Of a DNA stretch of 64,000 bases, positions 34,782 through 42,050 are shown in pieces. This DNA is from Rosistilla oblonga. GTDB taxonomy: Bacteria; Planctomycetota; Planctomycetia; Pirellulales; Pirellulaceae. The notes beneath the pieces were generated by a model. The model had not been told where the DNA came from. It saw only the letters and a list, made by a program, of their open reading frames with translations, and ran no database searches. Every line of letters begins with the position of its first letter. Position 1 is the stretch's first letter. The DNA is taken from NCBI RefSeq assembly GCF_007751715.1, contig NZ_CP036292.1, positions 2,356,001-2,420,000 on the forward strand, in the 5' to 3' direction. A program made the position numbers and the translations under genes.

Positions 34782-34857
34782 CATACCAGCACGAAGCGCA
34801 AGCGAGTGATCCCTCAACGCTCGCCCTCATACCAGCACGAAGCGCAAGCGAGTGATC
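34782..34857. repeat. Tandem pair of 30-base direct repeats
   Basis: Two exact copies of a 30-base unit (34782-34811 and 34828-34857), beginning CATACCAGCACGAAGCGCAA and ending GCGAGTGATC, are spaced 46 bases apart between the convergent trpG and sulfatase genes. The unit is not obviously palindromic. Its origin is unknown. Confidence 0.85.
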
Positions 34858-36376: not shown

Positions 36377-36445
36377 ATGGTCGCCTTTCGCTCCGCGAAA
36401 GAGCGTGCATCCGGGCCGCACTTTCGCGGAGCGAAAGGCGACCAT
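36377..36445. repeat. REPIN-like element P1 (inverted pair)
   Basis: Two inverted 25-base arms (36377-36401 and 36421-36445) are separated by 19 bases. Each arm is a mini-hairpin CTTTCGCTCCGCGAAAG preceded by GGTCGC, the layout of REP sequences arranged as a REPIN. It lies 33 bases upstream of the sulfatase start, in the divergent promoter region. Confidence 0.88.
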
Positions 36446-36605
36446 GGCAGCAACCACCCGATTGTATGGCAGGGAGGCGCAGAATCGACCATAATTCAAA
36501 GCTCTGGCGAATTTCTTGTCCAACCGAGCAGCCTGTGCGGGAAAGAATATGTACGGACGAACAGAACCCGATACCAGCACACGGCAAACGCGCGTCGCTG
36601 CGGCG

Positions 36606-36630
36606 ATGGTCGCATTTCGATCCGCGAAAG
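36606..36630 (+). repeat. REP-like half element S2 providing a start codon
   Basis: A single left arm differs from the consensus at two positions and is followed by TGTGTCCCCACAG, close to the spacer of element P5 (TGCGTCCCCATACAG). So it seems to be a truncated REPIN. Its ATG opens the PSCyt1/DUF1553 reading frame. Confidence 0.8.
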
Positions 36631-39600
36631 TGTGTCCCCACAGATCGATCATTCGAACAATCCACACGTTGGCCCTCCTGGCTGTCCTACTCACCAGCGG
36701 TATCGCACCGGCAAGCGCCGCGGACAAACCAAACAAAGAACTATCCGGCGAAAGCGAAGTCCTCTTCGTCCGCCGGATCGCACCGATGTTCCGTGAGAAG
36801 TGCCTCGGCTGTCACGGGCAGGATCCCGAAGCGATCGAAGGCGGGATCGACTTCCGCACGATCGCTCCATTGCTTGCTGGCGGAGATAGCGGCGAAGCTG
36901 GCATCGTACCGGGACAGCCCAACGCGAGCTCGATCTATCTGGCGGCGGCGCGAGGCGAAGACGCTTTCTCAGCGATGCCACCGAAAGAAAGCGAAGCCCT
37001 CAGCGAAGAACAGCTCCGGTGGCTCAGTCGTTGGATTGAAACGGGAGCCCACTGGCCATCGGATGAACGGACGCTCGCGATCGAAACGGAATTCGCCGAC
37101 GCCTGGTCGTCCGAAGATGGCGTGAAGGTCAACACCTCCGGCGGTCTCGATAGCAACTGGACCAACCGGCGCTACGACCCGGCGGGACTGTGGGCCTATC
37201 AACCGGTCGCTGGTCGCCTTTCGCTCCGCGATAACGATGCGAACTTTCACGAAGCGAAACGGGACGATGTCGATCACTTCATCGACGATGCGATGCCCGA
37301 CGGGATCGCCGTCGCACCACGAGCGGACCGCCGGACGCTGATCCGCCGTGCGACTTTCGATCTGACCGGATTGCCGCCGACGCCCGGCGAGATCGCTAGC
37401 TTCCTCAGCGACCCAGCGGATGACGTAACCGCCTTTCGCTCGCTCGTCGACCGCTTGCTCGCTTCACCTCATTACGGCGAACGGATGGCCCAACATTGGC
37501 TCGACGTGACTCGCTACGCCGACTCCTCCGGCTTCGCTAACGATTACCAGCGCGGCAACGCCTGGCGATACCGCGACTATGTCATCCGATCGTTTAACGA
37601 CGACAAACCTTATGACCAATTTGTCCGCGAGCAGATCGCGGGGGACGAGATCGATCCCGACGATCCTGAAGGCATCATCGCCGTGGGGTTCCTTCGCATG
37701 GGCCCTTGGGAATTGACAGGCATGGAAGTCGCCAAGGTCGCCCGAATGCGATTCCTCGACGACGTGACCAACAGCGTGGGCGAAACGTTTCTCGGCCAAT
37801 CGCTGCAATGCTGTCGTTGTCACGATCACAAATTCGATCCGATCCCTACTCGCGATTATTACAGCATCCAAGCCGTCTTCGCGACGACGCAATTGGCGGA
37901 ACGACCTGCCAGTTTTCTGCGGGATGAGAACACCAGCGGTTTTGAAGAGAAGACGTATCTCGAACAGCAGCGGAACAGCTACGCCCAAACGCAGCAGCAG
38001 TTAGATGAAGTCCTGCTGGAGAACGCTGAAAAATGGTACGACGACATGGTCGCCTTTCGCTCCGCGAAAGAGCGTTCCGACGATCAACGTCCGACTGCGG
38101 AGCAAACGACGACTCAAGATGAGCGCACTTTCGCGGAGCGAAAGGCGACCATCAAGCAGCGATGGAACGATGCGGTTACCAAGGCAAAACAGAAACGTTC
38201 GGGGCGGGGGAGTTTTGCTGCCGCTCGTGGTGCACTGATCTCTGCGGGAGTCGATCCACAGGAGATACCACCGGTCCGCGTCGGATTCACTCCGCAACAA
38301 TTTGGGCTCGAACGCGTCTCTCGCAAAGGCATGCAACGACTGCAGTGGGAATTCGATCGCTACCAACCGTTTGCACACTCGGTTTACAACGGGTACACGC
38401 CATCGATGACATCCGTCTCCCAACCGCTTCGAATACCCAAGGATCGCACTCGCGGTGAGCTCGAGAAATCGGTGATCCATACCGGCGGCGACCCGTTTGC
38501 CGCGGGCGAACCTGTCGCGGCGGGAGTGTTGAGTGTGATCGAGGACCAGGTTTCGGCGGAGATCCCCGGAACGATCGACGGTCGCCGAACAGCGCTCGCC
38601 AATTGGATCGCCGATCCCAAAAATCCGCTCACCACGCGCGTGATCGCCAACCGAGTCTGGCAATGGCACTTTGGTCGCGCGATCGCGGGAAATCCCAATA
38701 ACTTCGGTTCGACTGGCAAACGCCCCACGCATCCCGAGTTGCTCGATTGGTTAGCCGGTGAATTGGTTGCCAGCGGTTGGTCGATCAAGCACCTGCACCG
38801 CACGATCATGAACTCCGACACCTACTGTCGGTCGACTCGATACCCGCTCCCCGCGGAAGCGGATGAACCGCAAGATCCCCAATCGCTTGATCGCGACGCT
38901 TTGGCCCGCGCGTCGAACGCGTACGCAGTCTTCCTGCCGCGGCGTTTGAGTGCGGAAGAGCTTCGCGATTCGATGCTGAGTGTCAGCGGCGAATTAAATC
39001 CCGCGGTGGGTGGCATTCCCTGCCGACCGATCATCAATGCGGAAGTTGCGTTGCAACCGCGTCAGGTGATGGGCACGTTTGCTGCGGCGTGGACACCGAA
39101 TCCCAAGCCACAGCAACGCAACCGCCGCTCGATCTACGTTTTAAAACTCCGCGGCTTGGTCACGCCGGGGCTCGAAGTTTTCAACGCGCCGTCGCCCGAC
39201 TTCTCCTGCGAACGCCGTGACACATCGACAGTCACGCCTCAGGTGTTTGCAATGTTTAACAGCCGTAACACGCACGCCCGGGCGAGGGCATTGGCAAGAG
39301 AAGCGATGCAAAACACCTCCGATCCAACCGAAGCGATCGGCATAATTTATCAGCGATTGTTTTGCCGCGAAGCGACAGCGGAAGAGATTGAGCGATCCGT
39401 GACGCATTGGCAGCGGATCCAGTCGATGCTGCCAGCGACAGCGGATCCGGTCGACCCGCCAGCTCGCGAAGTCATCCGCGAGGCGGTTGAAGAGAACACA
39501 GGCGAGCGATTCCGCTTCACCGAAACAAGACACGCCGTCGACGACTTCCAACCCGACATACAACCAAGCGAAATGGATCCGAAGATACGAGCCTTAGCCG

Positions 39601-39650
39601 ATGTTTGTTTGGTGCTGATGAATAGCAACGAATTCGTATACGTGTACTGA
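36606..39650 (+). CDS. PSCyt1-DUF1549-DUF1553 protein with REPIN-encoded segments
   Basis: About 1,014 residues. A signal peptide (IIRTIHTLALLAVLLTSGIA) precedes a PSCyt1 haem motif (CLGCHG, about 75), DUF1549 (about 220-460, ending in CCRCHDHKFDPIPTRDYYSI) and DUF1553 (about 660-1000, TALANWIADPKNPLTTRVIA and NRVWQWHFGRAIAG). Such proteins are abundant in planctomycetes beside DUF1501 and sulfatase genes; their role is presumed extracytoplasmic polysaccharide metabolism. REP-derived sequence is translated in three places: residues 1-9 (MVAFRSAK), about 203-220 (GRLSLRD...) and 481-516 (MVAFRSAKERSDD to TFAERKATI). The frame stays open throughout. The in-frame ATG at 36516 is an alternative start, but it adds residues without signal character. 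Confidence 0.88.
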   Translation: MVAFRSAKVCPHRSIIRTIHTLALLAVLLTSGIAPASAADKPNKELSGESEVLFVRRIAPMFREKCLGCHGQDPEAIEGGIDFRTIAPLLAGGDSGEAGIVPGQPNASSIYLAAARGEDAFSAMPPKESEALSEEQLRWLSRWIETGAHWPSDERTLAIETEFADAWSSEDGVKVNTSGGLDSNWTNRRYDPAGLWAYQPVAGRLSLRDNDANFHEAKRDDVDHFIDDAMPDGIAVAPRADRRTLIRRATFDLTGLPPTPGEIASFLSDPADDVTAFRSLVDRLLASPHYGERMAQHWLDVTRYADSSGFANDYQRGNAWRYRDYVIRSFNDDKPYDQFVREQIAGDEIDPDDPEGIIAVGFLRMGPWELTGMEVAKVARMRFLDDVTNSVGETFLGQSLQCCRCHDHKFDPIPTRDYYSIQAVFATTQLAERPASFLRDENTSGFEEKTYLEQQRNSYAQTQQQLDEVLLENAEKWYDDMVAFRSAKERSDDQRPTAEQTTTQDERTFAERKATIKQRWNDAVTKAKQKRSGRGSFAAARGALISAGVDPQEIPPVRVGFTPQQFGLERVSRKGMQRLQWEFDRYQPFAHSVYNGYTPSMTSVSQPLRIPKDRTRGELEKSVIHTGGDPFAAGEPVAAGVLSVIEDQVSAEIPGTIDGRRTALANWIADPKNPLTTRVIANRVWQWHFGRAIAGNPNNFGSTGKRPTHPELLDWLAGELVASGWSIKHLHRTIMNSDTYCRSTRYPLPAEADEPQDPQSLDRDALARASNAYAVFLPRRLSAEELRDSMLSVSGELNPAVGGIPCRPIINAEVALQPRQVMGTFAAAWTPNPKPQQRNRRSIYVLKLRGLVTPGLEVFNAPSPDFSCERRDTSTVTPQVFAMFNSRNTHARARALAREAMQNTSDPTEAIGIIYQRLFCREATAEEIERSVTHWQRIQSMLPATADPVDPPAREVIREAVEENTGERFRFTETRHAVDDFQPDIQPSEMDPKIRALADVCLVLMNSNEFVYVY
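37211..37265. repeat. REPIN-like element P3, decayed, within a coding region
   Basis: Left arm 37211-37231 keeps 21 consensus bases; right arm 37244-37265 matches the inverted arm at 18 of 22 bases. It encodes the linker between the PSCyt1 and DUF1549 domains, in a different reading frame from the other copies. The decay implies an older insertion. Confidence 0.78.
38046..38152. repeat. REPIN-like element P4 within a coding region
   Basis: Perfect 25-base arms at 38046-38070 and 38128-38152 are inverted and separated by 57 bases. The whole 107-base insert is read through in frame and encodes a charged linker between DUF1549 and DUF1553. No target duplication is obvious. Confidence 0.9.
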
Positions 39651-39728
39651 TGGTCGCCTTTCGCTCCGCGAAAGTGCGTCCCCATACAGGTCTTTCGCGG
39701 AGCGAAAAACGACAATCTCTTTCGCGGA
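39650..39728. repeat. REPIN-like element P5 upstream of RAYT
   Basis: Left arm 39650-39674 is perfect; right arm 39692-39716 has mismatches near its end (AAACGAC for AGGCGAC). A further partial arm (CTTTCGCGGA, 39719-39728) follows. The element starts on the A of the preceding TGA stop. It ends 11 bases before the RAYT ATG. Confidence 0.88.
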
Positions 39729-39739
39729 GGTATCAATCC

Positions 39740-40390
39740 ATGATTGGCGAATTGTTTGATCCGAAAGCCGAACTATTCATCCATGAGCATTGCCGACCGC
39801 ATTGGTCCCAAGTTGGCGCAATCGTGTTTATTACGTTCCGGACTGCAGATTCGATTCCGAAGGAAGTCATTGAACGTTGGGAGCGGGAAAAGCAAGATTG
39901 GCTCGAGCGGAAAGGCCTTTCAATCACAGGTCAACACTGGTCTCAGATTGTGCCTACGCTCGACGACAGCATTCGCGAGATGTTCAATCGCAATTTTGAT
40001 CGCTGTCGAGAAGATTGTCTCGACACATGTTTAGGTGAATGTGTCTTGCGTCGCCCAGCACTAGCTAAAATTGTGGGCGATGCCTTGCTTTATTTTGATG
40101 CCATCCGATATCGGATGGGCGATTTCATCGTAATGCCCAATCATGTGCATGCACTTGTCGCTTTCAGCACCCCCGAAGCACTGGCAACCCAAACCGACTC
40201 CTGGCTCCATTACACCGCGTTTGAAATCAACAAAACGCTCGATCGTAAAGGAAAATTCTGGCAACAAGAGCCATTTGATCATCTTGTTCGCAGTCCTGAG
40301 CAATACGATTACCTTCGCGATTACATCCAATACAATCCACAGAAAGCTGGGCTTAATCCAGGCGAATATCTATATCGACGCTATGAATGA
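39740..40390 (+). CDS. REP-associated tyrosine transposase (RAYT, IS200-like)
   Basis: The 216-residue protein carries the Y1/HUH transposase core. The metal-binding motif is MPNHVHALV (His135, His137), FWQQEPFDHLVR (about 173-184) matches the RAYT W-x-x-x-x-F-D signature, and the catalytic tyrosine is probably Tyr195 in DYIQYNPQKAGL. This enzyme type nicks single-stranded hairpin ends. The frame is open upstream through the REPIN (to 39650), but ATG 39740 starts the recognisable domain. It is flanked on both sides by REPINs of the type scattered through the neighbouring genes, as expected if they are its substrates. It appears intact. Confidence 0.9.
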   Translation: MIGELFDPKAELFIHEHCRPHWSQVGAIVFITFRTADSIPKEVIERWEREKQDWLERKGLSITGQHWSQIVPTLDDSIREMFNRNFDRCREDCLDTCLGECVLRRPALAKIVGDALLYFDAIRYRMGDFIVMPNHVHALVAFSTPEALATQTDSWLHYTAFEINKTLDRKGKFWQQEPFDHLVRSPEQYDYLRDYIQYNPQKAGLNPGEYLYRRYE

Positions 40391-40462
40391 CGACTGACAG
40401 TTCTTTCGCAACAGGGCCTATATGAATGATTGCTTCACGCTCTGCGGCTCTTGAGCTATGAG

Positions 40463-40611
40463 ATGGTCGCCTTTCGCTCCGCGAAAGTGCGTACAACAAA
40501 AACTGCATTTGCAGCGTGCAAGGCACCAATATTCAACCAATTCCACGGCCACTTTGTATAACTGCGTTATCCGACTTTCTAGCGTTCTTTCGCGGAGCGA
40601 AAGACGACCAA
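40463..40611. repeat. REPIN-like element P6 downstream of RAYT
   Basis: Perfect left arm 40463-40487 and right arm 40587-40611 (one change in the core) are inverted, with a 99-base interior, the longest in the set. It sits directly upstream of the DUF1501 gene, so it may lie in its leader or promoter. Confidence 0.88.

Positions 40612-40637: not shown

Positions 40638-42050
<1,413 letters not shown>

Follow-up and report, generated by a model that had tools for sequence, protein, structure and literature searches.

A predicted RAYT gene flanked by GTCG-footed REPINs in the planctomycete Rosistilla oblonga

Repetitive extragenic palindromes (REPs) are described from Pseudomonas, E. coli, Stenotrophomonas and Marinomonas as inverted pairs forming one unit, the REP doublet forming a hairpin (REPIN), which is dispersed in high copy number and accompanied by a REP-associated tyrosine transposase (RAYT) gene beside REPINs of its own type (PMC3116915, PMC8266576). 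In those systems, the tetranucleotide foot of the repeat matters for recognition and for the choice of the cut site, and in P. fluorescens the excision of whole REPINs was seen (PMC3116915, PMC8266576). Among planctomycetes, Rhodopirellula baltica was reported to harbour several REP families as well as numerous tyrosine transposases accompanied by repeats on their flanks (Di Nocera et al. 2013, PMC3733652), and Quentin et al. (2018, PMC6006769) described one TnpA-Y1 class whose members come principally from Planctomycetes, Acidobacteria and Proteobacteria; the statement in the original prediction for the DNA analysed here, that such systems are known mainly from Gammaproteobacteria, was thus overstated. 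Here, we describe a locus of Rosistilla oblonga, a relative of R. baltica in which REPs and RAYT-like genes are found as well. The window, i.e., the whole stretch of 64,000 nucleotides (nt) that was analysed, comprises bases 2356001–2420000 of a one-contig genome of 7.25 Mb (99.85% complete; G000), and it very probably harbours a REPtron, meaning a single-copy, domesticated transposase of the single-tyrosine (Y1, HUH) type, the RAYT, with REPINs on its flanks whose family it serves.

The repeat was defined by its 23-nt arm, GGTCGCCTTTCGCTCCGCGAAAG, which was counted at up to 3 mismatches. Ten arms were detected in the window, all of them at positions 36379–40609 and none in the rest of it, compared with a mean of 0.00 in 100 shuffles. 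They form, as had been predicted for some 4.2 kb of this locus, five inverted pairs (36379/36421, 37212/37244, 38048/38128, 39652/39692 and 40465/40587) and a solo arm at 36608; the RAYT gene lies between the last two pairs, with inverted REP pairs on both flanks. The spacers between the 23-mers were 19, 9, 57, 17 and 99 nt in this order, which agrees with the predicted lengths except for REPIN 2, where 9 instead of 12 nt were found because the right arm is eroded (5 mismatches). The elements are listed below.

36379..36443, no strand assigned: REPIN 1, inverted pair, both arms perfect, spacer 19 nt.
36606..36653, + strand: solo REP arm (arm at 36608-36630, 2 mismatches), at the start of the DUF1553 gene.
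37212..37266, no strand assigned: REPIN 2, eroded pair (2 and 5 mismatches), in frame within the DUF1553 gene.
38046..38152, no strand assigned: REPIN 3, both arms perfect, spacer 57 nt, within the DUF1553 gene.
39650..39717, no strand assigned: REPIN 4, upstream flank of the RAYT gene, 0 and 3 mismatches, spacer 17 nt.
39740..40390, + strand: RAYT (TnpA-REP) gene, 216 amino acids, HUH motif NHVH (H135, H137), W174 Q175, D180 H181, and Y195 in YIQYNP.
40463..40611, no strand assigned: REPIN 5, downstream flank of the RAYT gene, 0 and 1 mismatch, spacer 99 nt.

Each arm comprises the foot ATGGTCG, a single nucleotide and a TCC loop closed by a stem of 7 bp (CTTTCGC/GCGAAAG), and two inverted arms with their feet outward make up a REPIN of about 65 nt. 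An extended unit, delineated by eye, reads G[AT]T-GGTCGCC-TTTCGC-TCC-GCGAAAG-TGCG-N9-CGCA, followed by its inverse. Folding predicted long hairpins for three of the five window REPINs (z -10.7, -10.0 and -7.2); the predicted fold of the solo arm was no better than that of shuffles, 40 of 200 being equally good. The foot in the window is GTCG and does not match the canonical REP foot GT[AG]G. The GTCG foot, the stem without a bulge, the TCC loop and the occurrence of the foot also at empty sites (see below) distinguish the family from the Pseudomonas, E. coli, Stenotrophomonas and Marinomonas systems, with which it shares the inverted pair as a unit, the dispersal in high copy number and the RAYT beside REPINs of its own type.

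Throughout the genome, 122 arms were counted at the same threshold (63 forward, 59 reverse), and the reversed-pattern control gave 0 matches, revealing a short palindrome that is dispersed in high copy number, as expected of a REP, and that is by no means private to this locus. Pair and spacer statistics were derived from the sequence around the matches listed, covering 57 partly overlapping G000 loci at up to 6 mismatches. Among these, there were at least 118 arms, at least 47 pairs and at least 24 unpaired arms, and the modal spacer was 17 nt (16 of the 47 pairs); one of the 47, at 1036641, consists of two overlapping matches and is an artefact rather than a true pair. The density of the cluster had been considered unusual, an impression dispelled by five pairs within 2.2 kb at 6990258-6992451. 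Part of that second cluster (G000:C1:6990258-6990877, L100) is an array in which four REPINs, each with a 50-nt spacer, recur in tandem about every 175 nt; of these, three are present in G002 and one in G001, the two sister species introduced below. PHROGs gave no match.

By its motifs and its predicted fold, the gene at 39740-40390 is a RAYT. A profile search of the PDB at a limit of E 0.01 yielded 4er8, the TnpA-REP of E. coli, as the sole match (E 0.005), and the same entry was the best fold match (E 8.6e-6) of the AlphaFold model, which has a mean predicted local distance difference test score (pLDDT) of 85; together with the motifs, this corresponds to the HUH motif and single Tyr in a Y1 fold that characterise RAYTs, and it bears out the prediction of a RAYT between two pairs. 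Y195 is the putative catalytic Tyr, assigned by motif only. All 18 aligned sequences, the window's included, keep H135, H137, W174, Q175, D180, H181 and Y195, and all 18 are matched by NCBIfam NF047646 (REP_Tyr_transpos) at E <= 1e-3, the best at 1e-14. With one match in G000, the RAYT is a single-copy gene, unlike the multi-copy, self-carried transposase of an IS200/IS605 insertion sequence. Upstream of the gene, its reading frame continues without a stop as far as an ATG within the REPIN 4 foot (39650-39740), and a longer protein starting in the repeat is possible. The other Y1 genes of G000 were rejected as movers of the repeats: no REP-like hairpins are present in the 1.5-kb flanks of any of the five, and the four whose frames were read have a different motif set, DHVH and YIxxQxxHH.

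Among described groups, the window RAYT resembles TnpA-REP subclass 2.7 (Quentin et al. 2018, PMC6006769), a placement made by motifs only and not in the tree of that study. Common to both are the [ND]HVH, WQ and YIxxNP motifs, REPs next to the gene, a similar length (subclass median of 213 vs. 216 residues) and a D in place of E100 of E. coli, which in the window is D180 according to our own alignment, made by eye. They differ in the foot, GTCG in the window and GT[AG]G in subclass 2.7, and the subclass is listed from Cyanobacteria and few other phyla (PMC6006769).

To relate arms and transposase, 54 RAYT loci of the same bacterial family, namely the window's own and 53 others with 38 to 71% identity to the window RAYT, were searched for REP-like hairpins (GTNG followed after 0-2 nt by a perfectly paired stem of >=7 bp whose loop begins with TC). 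Within 350 nt of the genes, 173 hairpins were found (4.68 per kb), compared with 13 beyond 700 nt (0.16 per kb) and 0 in a control with one shuffle of each flank. At least two hairpins were present near the gene (<=350 nt) at 44 of the 54 loci and far from it at 4 of 54, and inverted arms on both sides of the RAYT were evident in many of the loci read. Because 44 of the 54 loci have at least two nearby hairpins, we conclude that, as far as sequence can tell, the arm family and the RAYT belong together, the window RAYT being flanked by pairs of its own family on both sides; the arm-transposase match of the original prediction thereby gained support, also from the foot type, which tracks the tree described below. 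Named hosts of the RAYT relatives include Rhodopirellula baltica BR-MGV, R. rubra, Roseiconus nitratireducens, Ca. Laterigemmans baculatus and Aeoliella straminimaris. One locus, L108, has long hairpins of a different design.

The commonest foot per locus was GTCG at 32, GTAG at 9, GTGG at 4 and GTTG at 1 of the 54 loci, with none at 8; the palindromes of most relatives (46 of 54 loci with a foot assigned) are hence of the same design and not unrelated. In a survey without a fixed loop, the stems were found to vary by RAYT lineage (CTTTCGC, CGTTCGC, ATTTCGC, CTTTCAC, TGGATCGC, CCATTTGC and more), with the loop mostly remaining TCC and the foot mostly GTCG. In a tree of 52 RAYTs, omitting L064 (cut by a stop) and L205 (truncated), the window RAYT falls into a clade of 42 rows (support 100/98), which contains all 31 GTCG rows, 7 footless ones, 3 with GTGG and 1 with GTAG. 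The foot type follows this tree with 11 changes, compared with a mean of 19.8 upon shuffling and 0 of 200 shuffles as low. Three GTGG-footed RAYTs (L045, L056 and L200) form one clade (100/94) and share SWQH and WQGDPFDH, at the positions of which GTCG rows mostly have SW[LTM]H and WQQEPFDH; the fourth GTGG row, L115, lies elsewhere in the tree and has neither. SWQH plus WQGDPFDH is a possible candidate signature for foot recognition, whose sharing counts as one event because the three RAYTs form one clade.

Co-occurrence was also seen at the level of genomes. Among 241 genomes of the family, at least 4 arms (at up to 1 mismatch) were present in 26 of 43 with a close RAYT, defined as a match at E <= 2e-66, and in 31 of the 198 others (Fisher P 7e-9), the cut-offs having been set after the lists were seen.

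The locus was compared with G001 and G002, two species of the same genus with a single contig each, G000 and G002 being the closer pair. With the window, G002 has in common the solo arm at 36608 as well as three REPINs, those at 36379, 37212 and 38048. What it does not share is the RAYT with the pair on either side of it, and no match to the window RAYT was found in G001 or G002. The region before the DUF1501 gene and about the first 100 nt of DUF1501 have no match in either species. Between DUF1553 and DUF1501, G002 (L118) carries a different Y1-like gene with 183 open codons, SNHVH and YVREAQ, which is class-3-like by comparison with the motifs in PMC6006769 and adjoins a second repeat family, AGCACGAAGCGCAAGCGAGTG; compared with the window, this would make two REP-type systems at one intergenic place. 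The second family has 148 copies in G000 (up to 2 mismatches), two of them in the window at 34788-34854, and adjoins about half of the 24 unpaired arms among the matches listed (by eye).

The age of the repeats was judged on 45 G000 pairs among the matches listed, and the comparison was confined to REPINs whose two arms could be recognised in each of the two species compared; at 531884, the scored pair combines an eroded left arm (4 mismatches) with a right arm, despite a perfect arm just upstream at 531850. In G002, 36 of the 45 pairs were anchored and 30 keep both arms, the remainder being without an anchor (9), absent or partial (5) or mis-anchored or collapsed (1). Over the 30 pairs, G000 and G002 differ at 35 of 1380 positions in the arms (2.5%), 850 of 14677 in the flanks (5.8%) and 68 of 667 in same-length spacers (10.2%). 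Compared with G001, for which 9 of the 45 pairs qualify, the values were 7.5% for arms, 6.4% for flanks and 15.3% for spacers, arms not being below flanks. Since 30 of the 36 anchored pairs are shared with G002 and arms have diverged less than flanks, the near-identity of the arms is no sign of youth, as opposed to the recent mobility originally read from it; a recent burst was likewise rejected, arms also being less diverged than spacers. At 1367356, the loop is AGC in one arm in G000 but in the two arms of G002, a pattern suggestive of one arm of a REPIN having been corrected by the other. In G001 (L136, L123, L212), some REPINs have been reduced, through loss of their central part, to a single hairpin that carries a foot on either side, resembling the 'double foot' form of PMC6006769.

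To find natural insertion sites, 36 further G000 flanks were looked up in both sisters, and anchors on both sides, some of them poor, were obtained for 31 in G002 and 26 in G001. Whether a site was clean and empty, i.e., cleanly anchored and devoid of an arm in a sister, was decided by eye once the sites had been seen. Eight sites qualified: 566139, 581361, 908984, 1367356, 2613990, 36379 and 36608 in G001, and 2683648 in G002. Left out as not clean were 1001604, 1153138, 1307908, 1464693, 2784947, 2685698, 2686025, 3733844 and unanchored sites; 2422188 corresponds to G001 sequence of the type already represented by 2613990 and was not added as a further site. Of nine regions considered for possibly G002-specific copies, six were searched in G000, and none of these gave a clean empty site.

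The octamer ATGGTCGC, in either orientation, was found in 5 of the 8 clean empty sites, compared with 0.95% of 19622 background windows of 30 nt (P 4e-9), and at all five it is in register with one flank (by eye). GGTCG was present in 6 of 8 at a background of 14.3%, which is inflated by arms in the same loci (P 2e-4). At 36379 (REPIN 1), the empty site in G001 reads GATGGTCGCC. At 2683648, the single clean G000-only insertion among the anchored sites, the foot predates the insertion because G001 and G002 both lack the REPIN yet both carry GCGACCAT; G001 reads TTGCGACCATA there, its far flank being poorly anchored. A ninth site, 39652, has an anchor on one side only; there, TGATGGTCGCC is present in both sisters, and the DNA beyond it is different.

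These sites point to insertion 3' of a target that matches the foot, as in IS200/IS605. The mechanism that we infer, in its binding, cleavage, strand, order of steps and present rate, is built on the observed sequence design, copy number, predicted fold, co-occurrence with RAYTs and feet at empty sites. The RAYT would bind the single-stranded hairpin through foot, stem and TCC loop and would cut with Y195, the GTCG foot serving as guide; the REPIN would be joined 3' of a chromosomal GGTCG matching the foot, so that the target would become one foot of the new copy. Movement would now be rare in an old population whose arms are kept alike. In IS608, the cut site is selected with the help of four guiding nucleotides that lie 5' of the hairpin. 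For the Marinomonas system, the cut sites are CT and CA for GTAG and CC or CA for GTGG (PMC8266576). By analogy, the same guide rule would predict CG or CA for GTCG, and a GGTCG target cut after CG would fit the empty sites. The non-target end of the insert can be read by eye as ending in CG, in line with the guide rule, at 581361 and 2683648 (the latter with one substitution), and it reads TG at 566139, too few cases to claim. In its widest form, REPINs would insert site-specifically 3' of a pre-existing target matching their own foot (ATGGTCG), the foot acting as guide and target alike; at the non-target end, the cut would follow CG, as expected from the published guide rule for GTCG, and RAYT lineages across the Pirellulaceae would carry co-evolving foot, stem and protein codes, foot changes retargeting the repeats; to this proposal as a whole, we give an even chance.

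Several results weigh against parts of this interpretation. In Pfam, the RAYT had nothing at E 0.001, Y1_Tnp appearing at E 0.0012 with 19.4 bits, below the cut-off of 23, and for NF047646 it scored 50.7 bits (a value given for the window RAYT only), short of the curated cut-off of 80. No REP with a GTNG foot and a TC loop was found at 8 of the 54 RAYT loci (L057, L063, L065, L108, L196, L202, L204 and L206). Of the genomes without a close RAYT, the 31 of 198 with at least 4 arms include some having more distant RAYTs, and 17 of the 43 genomes with a close RAYT have fewer than 4 such arms, several with other stems. Arms also persist without the RAYT, since G001 and G002 carry 28 and 97 of them, respectively, but no match to the window gene; REPINs persist in E. 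coli strains without a RAYT, too (PMC8049555). Exact GGTCG is absent at two clean sites, 2613990 (one mismatch) and 908984 (GGTC only), and the non-target end of the insert is ragged, with 0 to about 12 extra nt (by eye). Finally, 7 of the 8 clean sites were seen empty in G001 alone, which makes an excision scar possible there.

The last observation leads to the idea that the REPINs are ancestral and the empty sites are scars at which deletion or RAYT-driven excision left one foot in G001. Excision of an IS200-like element would likewise restore the target, as for IS608, and central deletions of REPINs do occur in G001 (567565 and 6086061); at 2683648 and 39652, however, both sisters lack the REPIN and both have the foot, for which one insertion is simpler than two exact losses because G000 and G002 are the closer pair, and with the feet of a REPIN being inverted, slippage between them would not leave one foot. 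We therefore consider scars an unlikely explanation of the empty sites. Somewhat less credence is due to the REPtron itself (REPIN-RAYT-REPIN) being mobile and having entered G000 as one piece at TGATGGTCGCC, which would account for both sisters having this sequence without the REPtron and would suit the inverted arms on both sides of the gene in many loci read: the entire intergenic region and about 100 nt of DUF1501 differ from both sisters, as would be expected had recombination replaced them, the RAYT gene is present only once, and REPtrons were reported not to appear to transpose as a unit (PMC6006769). That the arms are ordinary host sequences under selection, such as terminators or mRNA-stability hairpins, next to a RAYT by chance, is very improbable, for although arms are less diverged than spacers and flanks between G000 and G002, are retained in G001 and G002 without the window RAYT and lie deep within open frames in few cases, 44 of 54 RAYT loci are flanked by hairpins of this design, which are scarce at a distance from the gene, the stems differ from one RAYT lineage to the next with foot and loop mostly staying, and copies occur in coding genes and at sites empty in a sister. 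Selection on arms after insertion remains compatible with REPINs mobilised by the RAYT.

Two neighbouring genes complete the locus.

36606..39650, + strand: host gene PSCyt1-PSCyt2-PSD1 (DUF1549/DUF1553), carrying the solo arm and REPINs 2 and 3; start inferred.
40638..42050, + strand: DUF1501 gene, downstream of the REPtron.

Copies in protein-coding genes, as originally predicted, are indeed present, but few lie deep inside: 5 of 72 units passed a crude test of >=90 open codons on both sides in one frame. Three of these five are backed by domain matches, one of them just under the cut-off, and 4080490 and 6992387 are without domain evidence. REPIN 3 codes for about 36 residues between PSCyt2 and PSD1 of the DUF1553 protein and has an eroded, shorter, in-frame version in G001. 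Among eight orthologues from other genera, five (L249-L253) are without the insert, two have other inserts there, and the remaining one, from genome G021 (64% identical), shows a stretch resembling its coding part (SAKDRTD...RTFAER). The solo arm adds 39 nt in frame compared with G001, after ATGGTCGC, within which the start codon of the DUF1553 gene likely lies, judging by the reading frame in G001 and by an N-terminus that resembles a signal peptide. Another REPIN, at 555278, is located in frame in an open reading frame of 793 amino acids, across a Wzy_C match of 30.9 bits (cut-off 31.7). Such copies are reminiscent of the Rickettsia palindromic elements (RPE), which are found in frame within protein genes; RPE differ in their CGTC tag, and no dedicated transposase was found for CGTC repeats (PMC3733652).

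In the text of the literature, figures and supplements excepted, the letters of the arm were not found, no paper joined 'tyrosine transposase' with GTCG, and nothing joined Rhodopirellula with 'repetitive extragenic palindrom'. The main text of Di Nocera et al. (PMC3733652), compared without figures and supplements, contains no word beginning with GTCG, so identity with one of its families is possible. REPs and RAYT-like genes in Rhodopirellula are already in print, and what is new here is the foot that empty sites often hold.

The dissemination of REPINs was termed a central, unresolved issue in the REPIN paper of 2011 (PMC3116915). Sister species with and without single REPINs provide natural empty sites and point to a target rule that is testable in vitro. 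The many RAYT lineages in one family, with stems of their own and GTCG, GTGG or GTAG feet, constitute a natural panel for the recognition code, and repeats turned into protein stretches that are kept across species represent another fate of such elements.

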